Of a stretch of DNA of 64,000 nt, positions 9,457-16,354 are shown in pieces; position 1 is the first letter of the stretch; each line of letters opens with the position of its first letter. The notes below the pieces were generated by a model. That model worked only from the letters and a program-made list of their open reading frames with translations. It was not told the DNA's origin and did not search any database. The stretch comes from Thermoanaerobaculia bacterium (GTDB lineage Bacteria; Acidobacteriota; Thermoanaerobaculia; UBA5066), in NCBI GenBank assembly GCA_022071945.1, contig JAJVIN010000004.1, positions 1 through 64,000 of the forward strand. Reading direction: 5' to 3'. The position numbers and the translations under genes are program-made.

Positions 9457-9531
9457 TGGCTCCGCAGGTAGGACTCGAACCTACAACCTACCGGTTAACA
9501 GCCGGTTGCTCTACCATTGAGCTACTGCGGA
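9457..9531 (-). tRNA. tRNA-Asn (anticodon GTT)
   Basis: The minus-strand sequence folds as a complete cloverleaf. The acceptor stem is TCCGCAG with CTGCGGA, the D-arm contains GCTCAATGGTAGAGC, and the anticodon stem ACCGG/CCGGT closes the loop CTGTTAA with anticodon GTT, which reads AAC/AAU. The T-arm is GTAGG-TTCGAGT-CCTAC. A discriminator G and encoded CCA follow (CCA at 9457-9459). The length is 75 bases including CCA. Confidence 0.97.
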
Positions 9532-10774: not shown

Positions 10775-13237
10775 CTACGCCGCCTCGGCCCGGAGGCCCT
10801 CGAACTTCAGGATGACCAGAGTCTGGTCGTCCTCGGGCGGCCGATTCCGTGTGAACCGGTTGATCTCTCTCAGAAGCTCGGCGCGCAGGGTCTCGACGGA
10901 CCTGCGTCCTTCTCGTCTGAGCAGGGCCTCGAACCGTTCGAAACCGAAGGGATCGCCCTGGTCGTTCGTCGCCTCGATCAGCCCGTCGCTGAAGATGACG
11001 AGCTGGTCGTTGGGGAGAAGGCGCGTCGTGAGCTCCCGGAAAGGTTCTCGCCGGTGGACACCCAGGGGCAGGCCCCAGCACGAGAGAGGTTCGATCTCGC
11101 CCGTCGCGGACCGGAAGATGTAGGGGTCGAGGTGCCCGGCCGAGGAGAACCTCAGGATTCCGGTGTCCTGATCGAGGAGGCCGAAAAAGAACGTCATGAG
11201 CATCCGCCGGGGCGCGATCCTCACGAGCGTGTCATTCAAGACCTGCAGGACCCGGACCGGGTTCGAGTCGTACTCCATCTGCACGAGGAGCGCGGATTTC
11301 ACCATCGACATCACGATCCCGCTCGTGAGCCCGTGGCCCGCCACGTCTCCCAGGGCGATCGCAAGGGTGCCGTTTCCCGCTGGGATGAAGTCGTAGTAAT
11401 CGCCGCCGATCTCCGTCGCAGCCCCGTAGTGAGCGGCCAGCGCCAGGCCGGGAAACTCGGGCTCTCGAGGCGGCAGGAGCGCTCGCTGGATCCGGTTCGC
11501 GGCATCGATCTCGGCCTTCACCCGCTCCCGCTCCACGATGCGCCGGACGTGGGGGGCCAGGTCCTCGTACTCGTACGAGACGGTGCGGCCGGTCAGGACC
11601 CCGGGGACCGCGATGGCGAGGACCGCCACCACCGGGACCGCGAGGGCGGCGATGAGGCCCATCCTCGGCGTTCCCGAGGCCTCGAGCAGGACGGGGACGA
11701 GACAGAGAAGGAGTTTCGCCCCGAACGCGGCCGTCGCCGCGGCGAGGAGGTCGGCGGAATAGAAAACGGCGGCAGCGCCCAGAGCAAGACCGGCGGCCCC
11801 TGTCAACGTCCATGGTTCCGGCTGCAAGGGGGCCGAGAAGGAACCAAGAACCGCTGCCGCGACCGTCGCGAGGACGGGTCCAAGGATGCCGGCCTTCAGG
11901 TGCCGGGAGGCCCAGGCGAGACCGAAGAGGATGCCGGTCACCGTCAAGGCCAGAGAATCCGAGGCCGCCCGCAGGGGCGTCGAGAACGGACCTCCGACGG
12001 CCGACAGGATGATCTCGGTGTCTTCCCAGCGAGACAGCCTCGCCCACCCGAGAAGCGACGGGACGAGCGGGAGAGCGAGCGCGGACACCGCGATCGCCGG
12101 CGCGGCCAGGAACCCGAAGAGAATGGACCGGCCAACGGTCGCATTGAACGGGTCGAAGCGGACCAGGGCATCGAACGATGCGAGGCGGTGGCCCCACCTC
12201 TCCCGTGCGTAGCTCTCTCCGACCGTCCAGGCGAGAAAGACGAGGGTCGCCAGAGGGACGTCGAAGAAGAGGAACCGAAAGCCTCCCTGCGCCACGGCCG
12301 TCCAGAAGGCGTCCGTGCCGCCGAAGTTCATCCCGAACGAGAAATGGGGCGCGCTGAAGGCGTTCGCACCGACGGACAGCGCGAGGTACGCCAAGAAGAG
12401 GGCTCCTCCGGTCCGGACCCCCACTTCACCCGCGTGGTACTTCCGCAGGAACAGCACGAGGATCGCGAACAGAACGCCGTAGACGGCCGCCATCCTGCCG
12501 AAGACCCCGGCCAGCTCGAGCTGGTAGCGAAAGGCGCGTCCGTCCTTGTAGTCCTCGGACAGTTCCCAGCCGGTCCACCTGTCCCCGCTGAAGTAGAGGG
12601 CAACGTTGTAGACGAAGGAAGGGGGGAGCCCGGCGCGCTCGACCGAATACCGGAAGGCGTGCTCCGTCCGGGAGGCGAATGCCGCCGGCCTCACGGACTC
12701 GTAAACGGGGTTCGGAGCGCCCGGGAAGGTGTGTTCCGCCACGATCTGGTCGGCTTTCGGCCGCAGCTCGGCGGCCGTTGGCTTTGCGGCGCTCTCCTCG
12801 GGACGGAACCGCTTCCTGGCTCCGAGGACGGTGCCGTCGAAGCCGACGAGGACGTAGCCGTGCTCGGGGAACTTCTCGAGTCCTTTGCGAAAGTAGGTGA
12901 CCCGGTAGGAGCCCAGCCGGGGACCCAGGACCGGATCAGAGGCCGCGACACGGCGGGCGCCAGGATCCCGGGCGAGGTCTCCTTCGAGCGGGTAGTTGAC
13001 CCGCATGGCGATCACGACCCAGGAGGCCTCGACCGGGATTCCCCAGCGGCGGGCCTCGGCGTCCGCGATCCGGCGCACGTCCGCCCGGGTCACGCTGATG
13101 CCGCGGGGCTGGGCCGCATCGAAGTGCCGGAAGAGAAACACCAGGGCCGGCACGGCCAGAAGACCGAGGGCAAGAACGGCGGCCCAGGCTCGCTTCGAGA
13201 GATTCAACACGCCTCCTGGAGTACGCGTCAGGTCCAT
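10775..13237 (-). CDS. Polytopic membrane SpoIIE/PP2C-type protein phosphatase
   Basis: This 820-residue protein starts with a membrane helix (about residues 17-37), then has an extracytoplasmic region of about 200 residues, then eight or more membrane segments (about 240-545). A linker containing RVKAEIDAANRIQRALLPP follows, as is usual just before SpoIIE-type phosphatase domains. The domain shows EIGGDYYDF, IALGDVAGHG, FSSAGH, IFSDGL and PPEDDQTLVI, giving the aspartates that bind two metal ions. It probably dephosphorylates an anti-sigma-factor antagonist in a partner-switching pathway, but no such partner gene is nearby. The N-terminal region may sense an extracytoplasmic signal. Confidence 0.82.
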   Translation of the reverse strand: MDLTRTPGGVLNLSKRAWAAVLALGLLAVPALVFLFRHFDAAQPRGISVTRADVRRIADAEARRWGIPVEASWVVIAMRVNYPLEGDLARDPGARRVAASDPVLGPRLGSYRVTYFRKGLEKFPEHGYVLVGFDGTVLGARKRFRPEESAAKPTAAELRPKADQIVAEHTFPGAPNPVYESVRPAAFASRTEHAFRYSVERAGLPPSFVYNVALYFSGDRWTGWELSEDYKDGRAFRYQLELAGVFGRMAAVYGVLFAILVLFLRKYHAGEVGVRTGGALFLAYLALSVGANAFSAPHFSFGMNFGGTDAFWTAVAQGGFRFLFFDVPLATLVFLAWTVGESYARERWGHRLASFDALVRFDPFNATVGRSILFGFLAAPAIAVSALALPLVPSLLGWARLSRWEDTEIILSAVGGPFSTPLRAASDSLALTVTGILFGLAWASRHLKAGILGPVLATVAAAVLGSFSAPLQPEPWTLTGAAGLALGAAAVFYSADLLAAATAAFGAKLLLCLVPVLLEASGTPRMGLIAALAVPVVAVLAIAVPGVLTGRTVSYEYEDLAPHVRRIVERERVKAEIDAANRIQRALLPPREPEFPGLALAAHYGAATEIGGDYYDFIPAGNGTLAIALGDVAGHGLTSGIVMSMVKSALLVQMEYDSNPVRVLQVLNDTLVRIAPRRMLMTFFFGLLDQDTGILRFSSAGHLDPYIFRSATGEIEPLSCWGLPLGVHRREPFRELTTRLLPNDQLVIFSDGLIEATNDQGDPFGFERFEALLRREGRRSVETLRAELLREINRFTRNRPPEDDQTLVILKFEGLRAEAA

Positions 13238-13376: not shown

Positions 13377-14927
13377 CTACCGCTTCTTTGCCGGAGCCTT
13401 CTTGGCGGGCGGAGCTGCCTTGGCCTTGACGACCGGAGCCGGCTTCGCCTTGGCCTTCGTGGCGGGAGCCGCTTTCGCCTTGCCAGCAGCGGCGGGCTTG
13501 GCCTTGGCGGCCTTCTTTGGAGCCGGGGCCGCGGGGGCCGCCTTGCCGAGCCTGGCGACCTCGGCGAAGTAGCGGGCGAACGCCACGATGCCACCCGATG
13601 CCTGCTCCCAGTCGTAGTTTTCGTTAGGAGCGTGGTAGCCGTGTTCGGGCAGGGAGAGCCCGAGGAACAGGACGGGTGCCTCCAAGACCTGCTCCATCGT
13701 GATCACCGCGCCGATCGAGCCGCCCTCGCGGACGAAGACCGGCTCCTTGCCGAACGCAAACTTCATCGACCGCCTGACCGCGTCAGCCAGGGGACCCGTC
13801 GTCAGACCCTTGTAGGGCCCGAGACGGTTGGCACGCTGGACCTTGACGTCCGGGTTCTTGGACTTGACGAACTTCTCGATGGCCTTGCAGATTTTCTCGG
13901 GGTCCTGGTTCGGAACGAGCCGGCACGAGACCTTGACCTCGGCACGCGGCGGGATCACGGTCTTCAGTCCCGGCCCCGTGTACCCTCCCACGACCCCGTG
14001 GATCTCGAAGGTCGGCTGGGCCCAGATCCGCTTCATCAGATCGAGCGGGTCGTTGGTCCGCAGGGACTTGAACAGGTGGTCCTTCTTGAAGCCGGCGACC
14101 GTGAAGCCCGACTTCTTGAAGTCCTCGAGCTCCTTCTTCGTCGGGGCCACCACGTCCTCGTAGAACCCGGGGATCTTGACCTTTCCGGTCCGGGCGTCGA
14201 AGCACTCCGCGACGAGCTGCATGAGCTCGGCGATGGGGTTGCGGGCCGCCCCGCCGCAGACGCCCGAGTGCTGATCGGTCGTCCCGGTCTCGAGGGTGAA
14301 GAGGAATCCCTGCAGGCCGCGCAGCCCGGCGGGGGCCGCGGGCTTGCCGCGCGCGATCCAGATCGTGTCCGAGACGATCACGGAGTCGGTCTTCAAGGCA
14401 TCTCGGTTTTCCTTGATCCCCTTCTCGAAGTTCGGGGAGCCGATCTCCTCCTCGAACTCCCACAGGACGCGGAGGTTGACGGGGACTCCGGCTTCGCGCG
14501 CGGCCTTGATGCCGAAAAGGGCGGACAAGGCTGGTCCCTTGTCGTCCGTCGTGCCGCGGCCGAAGTACTTGTCGCCCTTCACCGTGAACGTGAACGGCTC
14601 GGTCTCCCACGGCTCGGTCTCCTTCGACGCCGGTTGAACGTCGAGGTGGTTGTAGACCGTCACCGTCGGCAGGGCAGGATCGTCACCCCACTGGCCGCAC
14701 ACGATCGGATTGCCCGCGTCCCCAGTGTCGATCGTCGAGGGCTGTCCGCCGAATTCGAGGATCGTGTCGCTGGCGATCTTCGCGAGATCCCGGATGTAGG
14801 GCTTCTTTGTGGGATCGTTCGAGATTGTCGGGATTTCGACGTACGTCTTGAGGAGCTCCTCGAACGATTGGCGATGCTTGTTCGCGAACGCGCCGAGGGC
14901 CTCCTTTGTGAGAGCTTCTTCCTTCAT
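13377..14927 (-). CDS. M20-family metallopeptidase with histone-H1-like lysine/alanine tail
   Basis: The 516-residue enzyme carries the M20 dinuclear zinc motifs: YNHLDVQP (His94, Asp96), GTTDDKG (about 125-131), EFEEEIGS (Glu160/161) and a C-terminal HAPNENY. The M20 catalytic and dimerisation domains cover about residues 20-455, the size of a bacterial carnosinase/CPG2-like dipeptidase. It should hydrolyse dipeptides or N-acyl amino acids in the cytoplasm, as there is no signal peptide. After residue about 460 comes a 57-residue tail of Ala, Lys and Pro with KAKAAP-type repeats, like histone H1 or AlgP tails. Its role is unknown; nucleic acid or membrane binding is possible. Confidence 0.85.
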   Translation of the reverse strand: MKEEALTKEALGAFANKHRQSFEELLKTYVEIPTISNDPTKKPYIRDLAKIASDTILEFGGQPSTIDTGDAGNPIVCGQWGDDPALPTVTVYNHLDVQPASKETEPWETEPFTFTVKGDKYFGRGTTDDKGPALSALFGIKAAREAGVPVNLRVLWEFEEEIGSPNFEKGIKENRDALKTDSVIVSDTIWIARGKPAAPAGLRGLQGFLFTLETGTTDQHSGVCGGAARNPIAELMQLVAECFDARTGKVKIPGFYEDVVAPTKKELEDFKKSGFTVAGFKKDHLFKSLRTNDPLDLMKRIWAQPTFEIHGVVGGYTGPGLKTVIPPRAEVKVSCRLVPNQDPEKICKAIEKFVKSKNPDVKVQRANRLGPYKGLTTGPLADAVRRSMKFAFGKEPVFVREGGSIGAVITMEQVLEAPVLFLGLSLPEHGYHAPNENYDWEQASGGIVAFARYFAEVARLGKAAPAAPAPKKAAKAKPAAAGKAKAAPATKAKAKPAPVVKAKAAPPAKKAPAKKR

Positions 14928-15019: not shown

Positions 15020-15487
15020 TCACAGACCGTCGGGTTGACCGTCTCCGGGACCGGACCGTGCCGGGCCATCCTCCCGCGCGGCGCGGCTCCGGCGCCTGCG
15101 GAACTGCCTCTCTTCCTCTTCCTTGTAGAGGTACTTGATGGCGTGCTTCTGGACGAGGAGGTTCGGCGCGTTATCGCGGTTGAGCTTGATGACGTCCTTG
15201 TCGTACCACTCGATCCAACCCCGGAGCTCCTCGCCATCCGTCAGGAGGACGACGATGGGCGTCCTCGACTGCATTTGCTTGAGGTAGTAGAAGGCTTCCG
15301 CGTTCGTCTGCTCCGGCGGGACCGGCTTGCGCGAGAGCTGGCCCCTCACCCCCGATGGGTCCCGTCTCACCTCCGAGAGGGAGGACCGGATGAGCTTTCG
15401 CGGACCGAGCTCGGCGCGCTCGCCCGTGATGGGAGCCGGGGCGCTGAGAGGTGGCTGATCGACTGTTGGTTTCTTGCCCGGAGGCAT
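15020..15487 (-). CDS. hfq: Hfq-like Sm-fold RNA chaperone with long N-terminal extension
   Basis: This 155-residue protein has an Hfq core at about residues 64-124: [21 protein letters not shown] (Sm1), [15 protein letters not shown], and the family-defining KHAI at 114-117. A canonical Hfq is 70-100 residues; here a 60-residue basic, proline-rich N-terminal extension and a charged C-terminal tail flank the core. The proximal-face glutamine near the start of the core appears replaced. Hfq hexamers bind U-rich and A-rich RNA and pair small RNAs with mRNAs. The ATG follows GGAGGAAGG. An alternative is a diverged Sm-like protein with another RNA target. Confidence 0.75.
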
Positions 15488-15604
15488 CGGTCCTTCCTCC
15501 GCTTCGGAGTCGTCGTTGGCGTGGGTCGAACGGTGGTGCGAGGCGAAAGTCTATCAGGCACTCCCGCCTTCGCAACCCGCTCGACCATTCCGGTTTTGCC
15601 GAAT

Positions 15605-16354
15605 TCAGCCTGCCCGGGGTGGTTCGCTCTTTTCGTGACCCTTGCTCGCGGCCTTGCGCGCGGCCTCGATGCCTCCCTCGAGCTCGTAGGCGAGGCAGCA
15701 TTTGAGCCTCCCGCACATCCCCGTGAGCTTCGAGGGATTCGGCGTAATCCCCTGCATCTTGGCCATCTTGATCGTGACCGGATGGAAGCCCCTCAGCCAT
15801 GTGGAGCAGCAGAGAGTCAGTCCGCAGGGGCCGATTCCTCCCATCATGCGCGTCTCGTCCCGTACGCCCGTCATGCGGGCCTCGACGCGTACCGAAAGCG
15901 CACTGGCGGCGTCCCGGGTGAGGTCCCTGAGGTGGACGCGCTCATCGGAGGAGTAGTGAAGGATGACCTTCCGGCGGTCGAACGAGGCCGTCGCGCGGAG
16001 GAACTTGATCGGGATGTCCTTGCCGATCAAGTACTGCCTCACGAAACGGTCCGCGCGCTCCTGCAGGGCGAGCCGCTCGGCGAAGTCGGCCATCTCCGCA
16101 TCGGAGGCGCGGCGGATCAGCCGCTTCGCCTTTTTCGACGAGCACGGCTTGGAAAGAACAGGATTCAGGGTGAGGACTTCGGCGATCTCCGGACCCGAGT
16201 CCGTCTCGACGAGGATGTGCGCGCCCTTTTCGAGCGGCACTTCGCCCGCGAGGACGATCGTCAGCTTGCCATCCTCGGCGTCAGCCAGCCTCACGCCAAC
16301 GAAGTTCCCGCCCGGATTGCGCGAGGTGCCTATGGAACAACCAGAACAACTCAT
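15605..16354 (-). CDS. ricT: PSP1-domain protein (RicT/YaaT-like)
   Basis: The start is at the ATG giving MSCSGCSIGTSRNPGG. Upstream extension would run into the divergent pgi gene. The 249-residue protein has the PSP1 hallmarks: a DAEMADFAERLALQERAD stretch, LHYSSDERVHLRDLTRDAA, and a cysteine cluster (GIGPCGLTLCCSTWL then GMCGRLKCCLAYE). In Bacillus, RicT with RicA and RicF forms a complex, carrying Fe-S clusters, that affects RNase Y-dependent RNA processing. The partners are not in the window. The neighbouring Hfq-like gene hints at an RNA-metabolism context. It is divergent from pgi with an 85-base shared promoter region. Confidence 0.85.
   Translation of the reverse strand: MSCSGCSIGTSRNPGGNFVGVRLADAEDGKLTIVLAGEVPLEKGAHILVETDSGPEIAEVLTLNPVLSKPCSSKKAKRLIRRASDAEMADFAERLALQERADRFVRQYLIGKDIPIKFLRATASFDRRKVILHYSSDERVHLRDLTRDAASALSVRVEARMTGVRDETRMMGGIGPCGLTLCCSTWLRGFHPVTIKMAKMQGITPNPSKLTGMCGRLKCCLAYELEGGIEAARKAASKGHEKSEPPRAG

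Follow-up and report, generated by a model that had tools for sequence, protein, structure and literature searches.

The closest described relatives of the protein reported here are the canonical Hfq proteins (TIGR02383; E. coli, Caulobacter 6gwk), which have the same Sm/Hfq fold, fall in the same Pfam families, and supply its top Foldseek matches. Uracil recognition on the proximal face of Hfq is ascribed to Gln8 and Phe42 (PMC5379935). Aquifex aeolicus Hfq has an N-terminal tail of only a few residues that reaches the neighboring rim site, and it keeps Gln8, Phe42, Lys56, and His57 (PMC5379935). Burkholderia Hfq2 is a second, longer Hfq beside the canonical one, its added part being a C-terminal glycine-rich tail (PMC7074383). 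The cyanobacterial Hfq-related proteins (PF21979/NF047718; 3hfo, 3hfn) have a divergent Hfq fold and a possible protein-binding role.

The window, a 64,000-nucleotide stretch of DNA from a Thermoanaerobaculia bacterium of the phylum Acidobacteriota, encodes a member of a second, divergent Hfq family that exists beside the canonical Hfq of the same genome. As in Burkholderia, the second protein is the longer one, but its added part is an N-terminal arm bearing a conserved motif, and we use the working name HfqN, not Hfq2, because this part is N-terminal. Relative to canonical Hfq, HfqN keeps D40, K56, and, in many members, H57, but differs by E8, a polar residue at position 42, the loss of R16, changes at Y25/I30, scores below TIGR02383, the long arm, and a ricT/holB rather than a miaA gene context. 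Unlike Aquifex Hfq, it does not retain the full set of Gln8, Phe42, Lys56, and His57, and unlike the cyanobacterial proteins it falls below NF047718 and has the motif-bearing arm. In titles and the beginnings of abstracts from the literature on Hfq extensions, Hfq paralogues, Acidobacteriota, and RicT, subscription papers being outside the scope, we found no description of this family. Acidobacteria figure in an Hfq tree in PMC7074383, the available part of which does not describe the HfqN form, and the available part of PMC9029176 mentions them only in a count of sRNAs.

hfqN is a genuine gene whose extension, translated from the ATG given in Table 1, belongs to the coding sequence and is conserved. 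Codon 1 has a strong ribosome-binding site (GGAGGAAGG upstream), and the only in-frame ATG, GTG, or TTG codons are 1, 40, 47, and 72; codons 40 and 47 are inside or after the conserved motif, and codon 72 is inside the core helix. An internal start at about residue 60, which the sequence-only reading had raised against itself, therefore cannot explain the extension away, the stretch between codons 47 and 72 being free of start codons. That reading had called the roughly 60-residue extension basic and proline-rich, which the translation bears out (12 Pro and 11 Lys/Arg against 6 Asp/Glu in residues 1–60), and the charged C-tail that it saw is present in residues 124–155. Its remark that such an extension is unusual for Hfq agrees with the four residues given as the usual length in PMC6561178. 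Conservation of the extension in Acidobacteriota homologues, which it had put forward as a check, was found for the motif and the linker that follows, about half of the 60 residues, but not for the first ~28 residues, which are clade-specific; identity in the pre-motif segment was 0.23–0.46 against three related loci (L006, L007, L009).

Table 1. Positions of hfqN, its parts, and other features (window coordinates unless a contig is named)
Feature	Position	Strand	Basis or remark
hfqN, coding sequence of the divergent Hfq	15020..15487	-	155 aa plus stop, ATG start; Pfam PF21979, PF17209
Ribosome-binding site GGAGGAAGGA, just 5' of the hfqN ATG	15491..15500	-	Sequence context GCGGAGGAAGGACCG-ATG
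hfqN residues 1–28, weakly conserved leading segment, found in the window's clade only	15404..15487	-	Alignment
hfqN residues 30–43, conserved N-terminal motif	15359..15400	-	Family consensus RKLIRPSLxExK
hfqN residues 44–60, variable linker with conserved end K-x-x-P-P-E-Q	15308..15358	-	Alignment
hfqN residues 61–123, Hfq/Sm core, helix and five strands, W94-Y95-D96, K114-H-A-I	15119..15307	-	Pfam, AF2, Foldseek, core alignment
hfqN residues 124–155, C-tail, basic then acidic; predicted helix 125–136, then disordered	15023..15118	-	AF2 model
ricT (yaaT, PSP1 domain), directly upstream of hfqN	15605..16354	-	PF04468, 49.1 bits; start taken at MSCSGCS
M20 peptidase, next gene downstream of hfqN, 92 bp gap	13377..14927	-	Pfam
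Canonical Hfq of the genome	G000:C1:48221-48409	-	Locus L001:1456-1716(-)
tRNA gene	9460-9531	-	Rfam RF00005, 76.4 bits
820-aa protein	10775-13237	-	

Profile matches and predicted structure together show that the core of HfqN has the Hfq fold. The window protein matched Hfq_1 (PF21979, which we take to be a Pfam family centered on cyanobacteria) with 35 bits over residues 73–120, and Hfq (PF17209) with 33.4 bits over residues 71–123 (35 bits in the whole-genome search), the cut-off being 27 in both cases; with K-H-A-I at residues 114–117, the Hfq core and KHAI box of the sequence-only reading stand. It scored below the cut-offs of TIGR02383 (32.1 vs 61.7 bits) and NF047718 (28.6 vs 52 bits). 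An AF2 monomer model gave the Hfq fold over residues 63–136, with pLDDT 83–96 over residues 71–130 and low confidence over the N-terminal 60, and all 50 rows shown from a Foldseek search of the PDB were Hfq or Hfq complexes at probability 1.00.

The surfaces of this core are altered throughout the family. We aligned 180 unique HfqN cores (194 before identical cores were merged, with L090 omitted) with 21 canonical Acidobacteriota Hfq sequences and with E. coli Hfq. The proximal uridine pocket of canonical Hfq (Q8, F/Y42, K56, H57) is altered in HfqN: all 21 canonical sequences have Gln at position 8, where all 180 HfqN cores have Glu, and position 42, Phe or Tyr in 21/21 canonical sequences, is mostly Asn, His, Asp, or Ser, although K56 is kept in 179/180 cores and H57 in 112/180. 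The rim arginine patch (R16/R17/R19) is not conserved either, R16 being replaced by Met in 166/180 cores and R17 by Gln or Asn in most, while position 19 is Lys or Arg in 170/180; Y25/I30 of the distal face are changed as well. By contrast, W38, Y39, D40, and K45 are each invariant (180/180). Because Gln8 and Phe42 are replaced, we infer that HfqN should not bind U-rich tails as canonical Hfq does, although some RNA binding may survive, given the retention of K56 and, in part, H57. The sequence-only reading had drawn attention to the extension because the N-terminus of Hfq borders the RNA-binding proximal face; the extension is real, but the RNA-binding residues of that face are themselves altered family-wide. 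In a tree of 112 thinned HfqN sequences, the 21 canonical sequences, and the E. coli sequence, HfqN formed one group with no canonical member inside (modest local support of 0.65, 77 columns).

The hallmark of HfqN is the motif R-K-L-I-R-P-x-L-x-E-h-K, which usually stands 2–5 residues past the start Met, with a variable linker between it and the core. In the window protein, residues 30–35 read RKLIRS, with Ser at position 35, and the protein thus carries the full family signature of an N-terminal R-K-L-I-R-[PS] together with W38-Y39-D40, E8, and K45. Relatives were found by scanning a genome collection with patterns from the window protein, the motif not among them, and the best 80 of 135 stretches were used. 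R[KR][LF][IV]R[PS] preceded the core in 81/81 proteins, that is, the window protein and these 80 (L002 and L090 both denote the window's locus, and the 81 close loci include L002); in most of them 2–5 residues separate the motif from a start codon that has a ribosome-binding site. Among 32 sequences of less than 80% identity, R30 and R34 were conserved in all, L32 and I33 in 31, and P35 in 30, and no linker column before K54 was conserved at 80%. The motif is under purifying selection, pN lying far below pS in close pairs (0.03 vs 0.22 for L006/L007; 0.14 vs 0.79 for the window and L006).

We also inspected the motif in 114 HfqN loci, which came from 113 members of a broader set of 297 Acidobacteriota genomes. 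It was present in its strict form in 90/113 genomes and 54/61 families, and several more carried close variants, for example RKLIRT, RKLFRP, and RKLIPP. We prefer this strict count to a relaxed count of 104/113, because at least one match in the latter arose by chance (L192, in upstream read-through) and another is doubtful (L114). Of the 91 loci that were measured, 74 had a start codon no more than 6 aa from the motif; the spacing from motif to core ranged from 21 to 70 aa, with a median of 31. The motif is not essential to every HfqN, since about ten of these 113 genomes lacked it or had it in unrecognizable form, among them all three sampled f16 genomes and several f31 genomes. Clear absences occurred in some members of families f5, f16, f20, f31, and f64. 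A 25-aa consensus-like motif peptide compared with solved structures gave one match, which was meaningless (E 1.1). The motif offers a direct handle by which a binding partner can be sought.

When the whole genome was searched with PF17209, two genes matched, hfqN and a 61-bit one on another contig. The latter encodes the canonical Hfq, an 86-aa protein with no extension, next to a gene read as miaA from its sequence. It may go unnamed by automatic annotation because, at 58.1 bits, it is just under the TIGR02383 cut-off of 61.7. Reading hfqN as an Hfq with an extension, as had been done from the window, was right as to the type of core and missed this separate canonical protein.

Presence of the two types was scored in 297 evenly drawn Acidobacteriota genomes, for which at least 90% completeness had been requested. 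The HfqN family profile matched 198 of them at E-values up to 0.001 and 196 below 1e-10, PF17209 matched 252, and the classes were split at a gap in PF17209 E-values between 4.7e-14 and 2.4e-9. Both types were present in 90 genomes, HfqN only in 106, canonical Hfq only in 60, and neither in 41, giving totals of 196 for HfqN and 150 for canonical Hfq. HfqN is thus widespread in the phylum, where it coexists with canonical Hfq or replaces it, and its standing as the widespread, unnamed, N-armed second Hfq of Acidobacteriota is well supported. Acidobacteriota are a large phylum whose RNA biology is little known. If HfqN is their commonest Hfq (196 vs 150 of 297 genomes), an entry of 'Hfq present' in a survey cannot be equated with an E. 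coli-like sRNA chaperone. The paralogue pairs allow a clean comparison, in one cell, of two Hfq rings with different surfaces. Cultivable carriers of HfqN include a Geothrix species and Acanthopleuribacter pedis. The close relatives (best 80 of 135) came from records of Acidobacteriota classes or genera with three exceptions: L024 (Acidimicrobiia), L034 (uncultured bacterium), and L064 (Bacillota), the last of which appears to be misbinned, its sequence and histidine kinase neighbor matching Holophagaceae. For plasmid-borne relatives, the matches were seven weak ones in Azospirillum, at 33.8% identity over residues 53–117.

The gene directly upstream of hfqN is ricT, on the same strand and separated by 117 bp; its product scores 180.4 bits against NCBIfam NF041131 (cut-off 70). 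The RicT-like identity proposed from sequence was therefore correct, whereas the placement two genes from hfqN was not, the genes being directly adjacent. PF04468 was found in 129/297 genomes. Among the 187 of 196 HfqN genomes with coordinates, 92 held both HfqN and RicT, so that co-occurrence is not obligate, and in 49 of these 92 ricT lay directly upstream of hfqN, on the same strand and within 2.5 kb. This adjacency count is more reliable than neighbor labeling, which misses a ricT lying more than 600 bp upstream. ricT is thus a frequent upstream neighbor of hfqN, and RicT is a plausible functional one. As a universal docking partner of the motif, RicT is ruled out by co-occurrence, about half of HfqN genomes having no PF04468; nor is it the motif's general partner, because the many HfqN genomes with no RicT match include the motif-bearing, Holophagaceae-like family f33, which is absent from the 129 PF04468 matches. 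Some genomes have RicT and no HfqN.

The order tmk-holB-ricT-hfqN recurs in several families (L122, L126, L127, L135; tmk and holB are names read from the protein sequences). Bryobacter-like loci have holB upstream of hfqN, and in Holophagaceae loci (L033–L082) a PAS/histidine kinase gene is directly upstream, in 30 of 80 close loci. The M20 peptidase gene downstream of hfqN was not a recurrent neighbor among the clusters listed. In five loci (L124, L128, L145, L154, L166) there are ~600 bp extra between ricT and hfqN, room for a small gene. The host genome has RNase Y and RNase E/G. A search of it for the YlbF/YmcA family (RicA/RicF, PF06133) gave no match, so the host RicT may work without its Bacillus partners.

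Although the existence, spread, and motif of HfqN are well supported, its mechanism is a reasoned guess. We favor, at about an even chance of being correct, the view that HfqN is an Acidobacteriota Hfq paralogue with a job of its own, an adaptor ring with docking arms. Its core would form the usual ring, so that six motif-bearing arms would project. Each arm would dock a partner protein via L-I and the amphipathic S-L-x-E-I-K, with the Arg and Lys residues giving specificity. The RNA- or protein-binding surface of the ring would have been rewritten, and the ring would bring RNA-processing or translation machinery to its cargo, acting as an adaptor and not as a standard sRNA–mRNA matchmaker. 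This view is favored because the arm looks like a docking peptide and because AF2 monomers do not confidently place the motif on their own core. In two such models the motif was not docked on its own core and the N-terminal arm had low confidence, docking on a neighboring subunit being invisible to monomers; a short helix is predicted to follow the motif. A flexible arm of variable length, a basic-hydrophobic motif, and a short helix form a combination typical of a docking peptide, and a linker of 21–70 aa suits a flexible tether. The uridine-binding residues of canonical Hfq are, moreover, swapped in HfqN for other strictly conserved residues. Cyanobacterial Hfq, acting via a protein partner (PMC12288463), is the closest functional precedent for such a rewired ring. 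A bolder form of the proposal is tentative and rather doubtful: HfqN would be a phylum-level adaptor ring and not an sRNA chaperone, its six motifs would all draw in a single core machine of RNA processing or translation, and riboregulation in the 106 of 297 genomes where it is the sole Hfq, about a third, would follow another principle than in the Hfq model organisms.

The strongest rival to an adaptor ring, unlikely on balance, is that the basic motif is an RNA-binding arm. It would take the place of the missing rim arginines and fill out the lateral RNA site, either on its own subunit or on a neighboring one, and HfqN would be an RNA chaperone whose positive patch has moved to the N-terminus. 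Rim residues R16/R17 are indeed Met/Gln in most HfqN proteins while the arm brings R-K-x-x-R, K56 is almost always kept, and the N-terminal tail of Aquifex Hfq covers the neighboring rim site and contacts RNA (PMC5379935). The Leu and Ile of the motif, however, are nearly as conserved as its Arg residues and a short helix is predicted to follow, which fits protein docking better than an arm that is purely basic; the range of linker lengths is loose for a fixed rim site; and f17 sequences replace the second Arg (RKLIPP, RKLISP). It seems improbable that the ring, like that of cyanobacteria, has abandoned RNA and instead binds membrane machinery, for example the type IV pilus motor. Although the window protein scores slightly higher with PF21979 than with PF17209, and cyanobacterial Hfq is unlikely to bind RNA and binds the C-terminal extension of PilB (review PMC12288463), the window protein is far below NF047718, the PilB-like protein of the host (L219) ends with no evident C-terminal extension as judged by eye in this one genome, and the genes that recur beside hfqN (tmk, holB, and ricT) have nothing to do with pili.

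There is likewise only a slim chance that HfqN belongs, as a dedicated subunit, to an RNA-processing complex built on RicT, where it would replace RicA/RicF (YmcA/YlbF). B. subtilis RicT binds RNase Y and requires RicA and RicF (PMC10470536), the host has RNase Y with YlbF/YmcA not found, and the ricT-hfqN order is kept in the 49 genomes noted above, but the shared location with tmk and holB may reflect nothing more than inherited gene order, and the absence of RicT from about half of HfqN genomes, f33 included, together with the occurrence of RicT without HfqN, weakens any RicT-centered mechanism. Finally, an annotation artefact, with a spurious extension and translation beginning inside the reading frame, has practically no chance of being the explanation: codons 48–71 hold no start, codon 1 has its strong ribosome-binding site, and the motif is conserved family-wide under purifying selection, so that for the motif this idea is refuted by the sequence evidence.

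Several minor observations concern other genomes and the rest of the window. In genomes of family f20 (G007, G022, G115, and others) the HfqN profile gave, besides the main match, additional weak ones (E 1e-13 to 1e-17), which may be canonical Hfq or a third copy. Near hfqN, a scan for promoters and terminators stayed near chance level, and Rfam gave no match at the gene itself; the tRNA gene in Table 1 was the sole Rfam match in the window. The 820-aa protein has a C-terminal SpoIIE phosphatase domain preceded by many hydrophobic segments.
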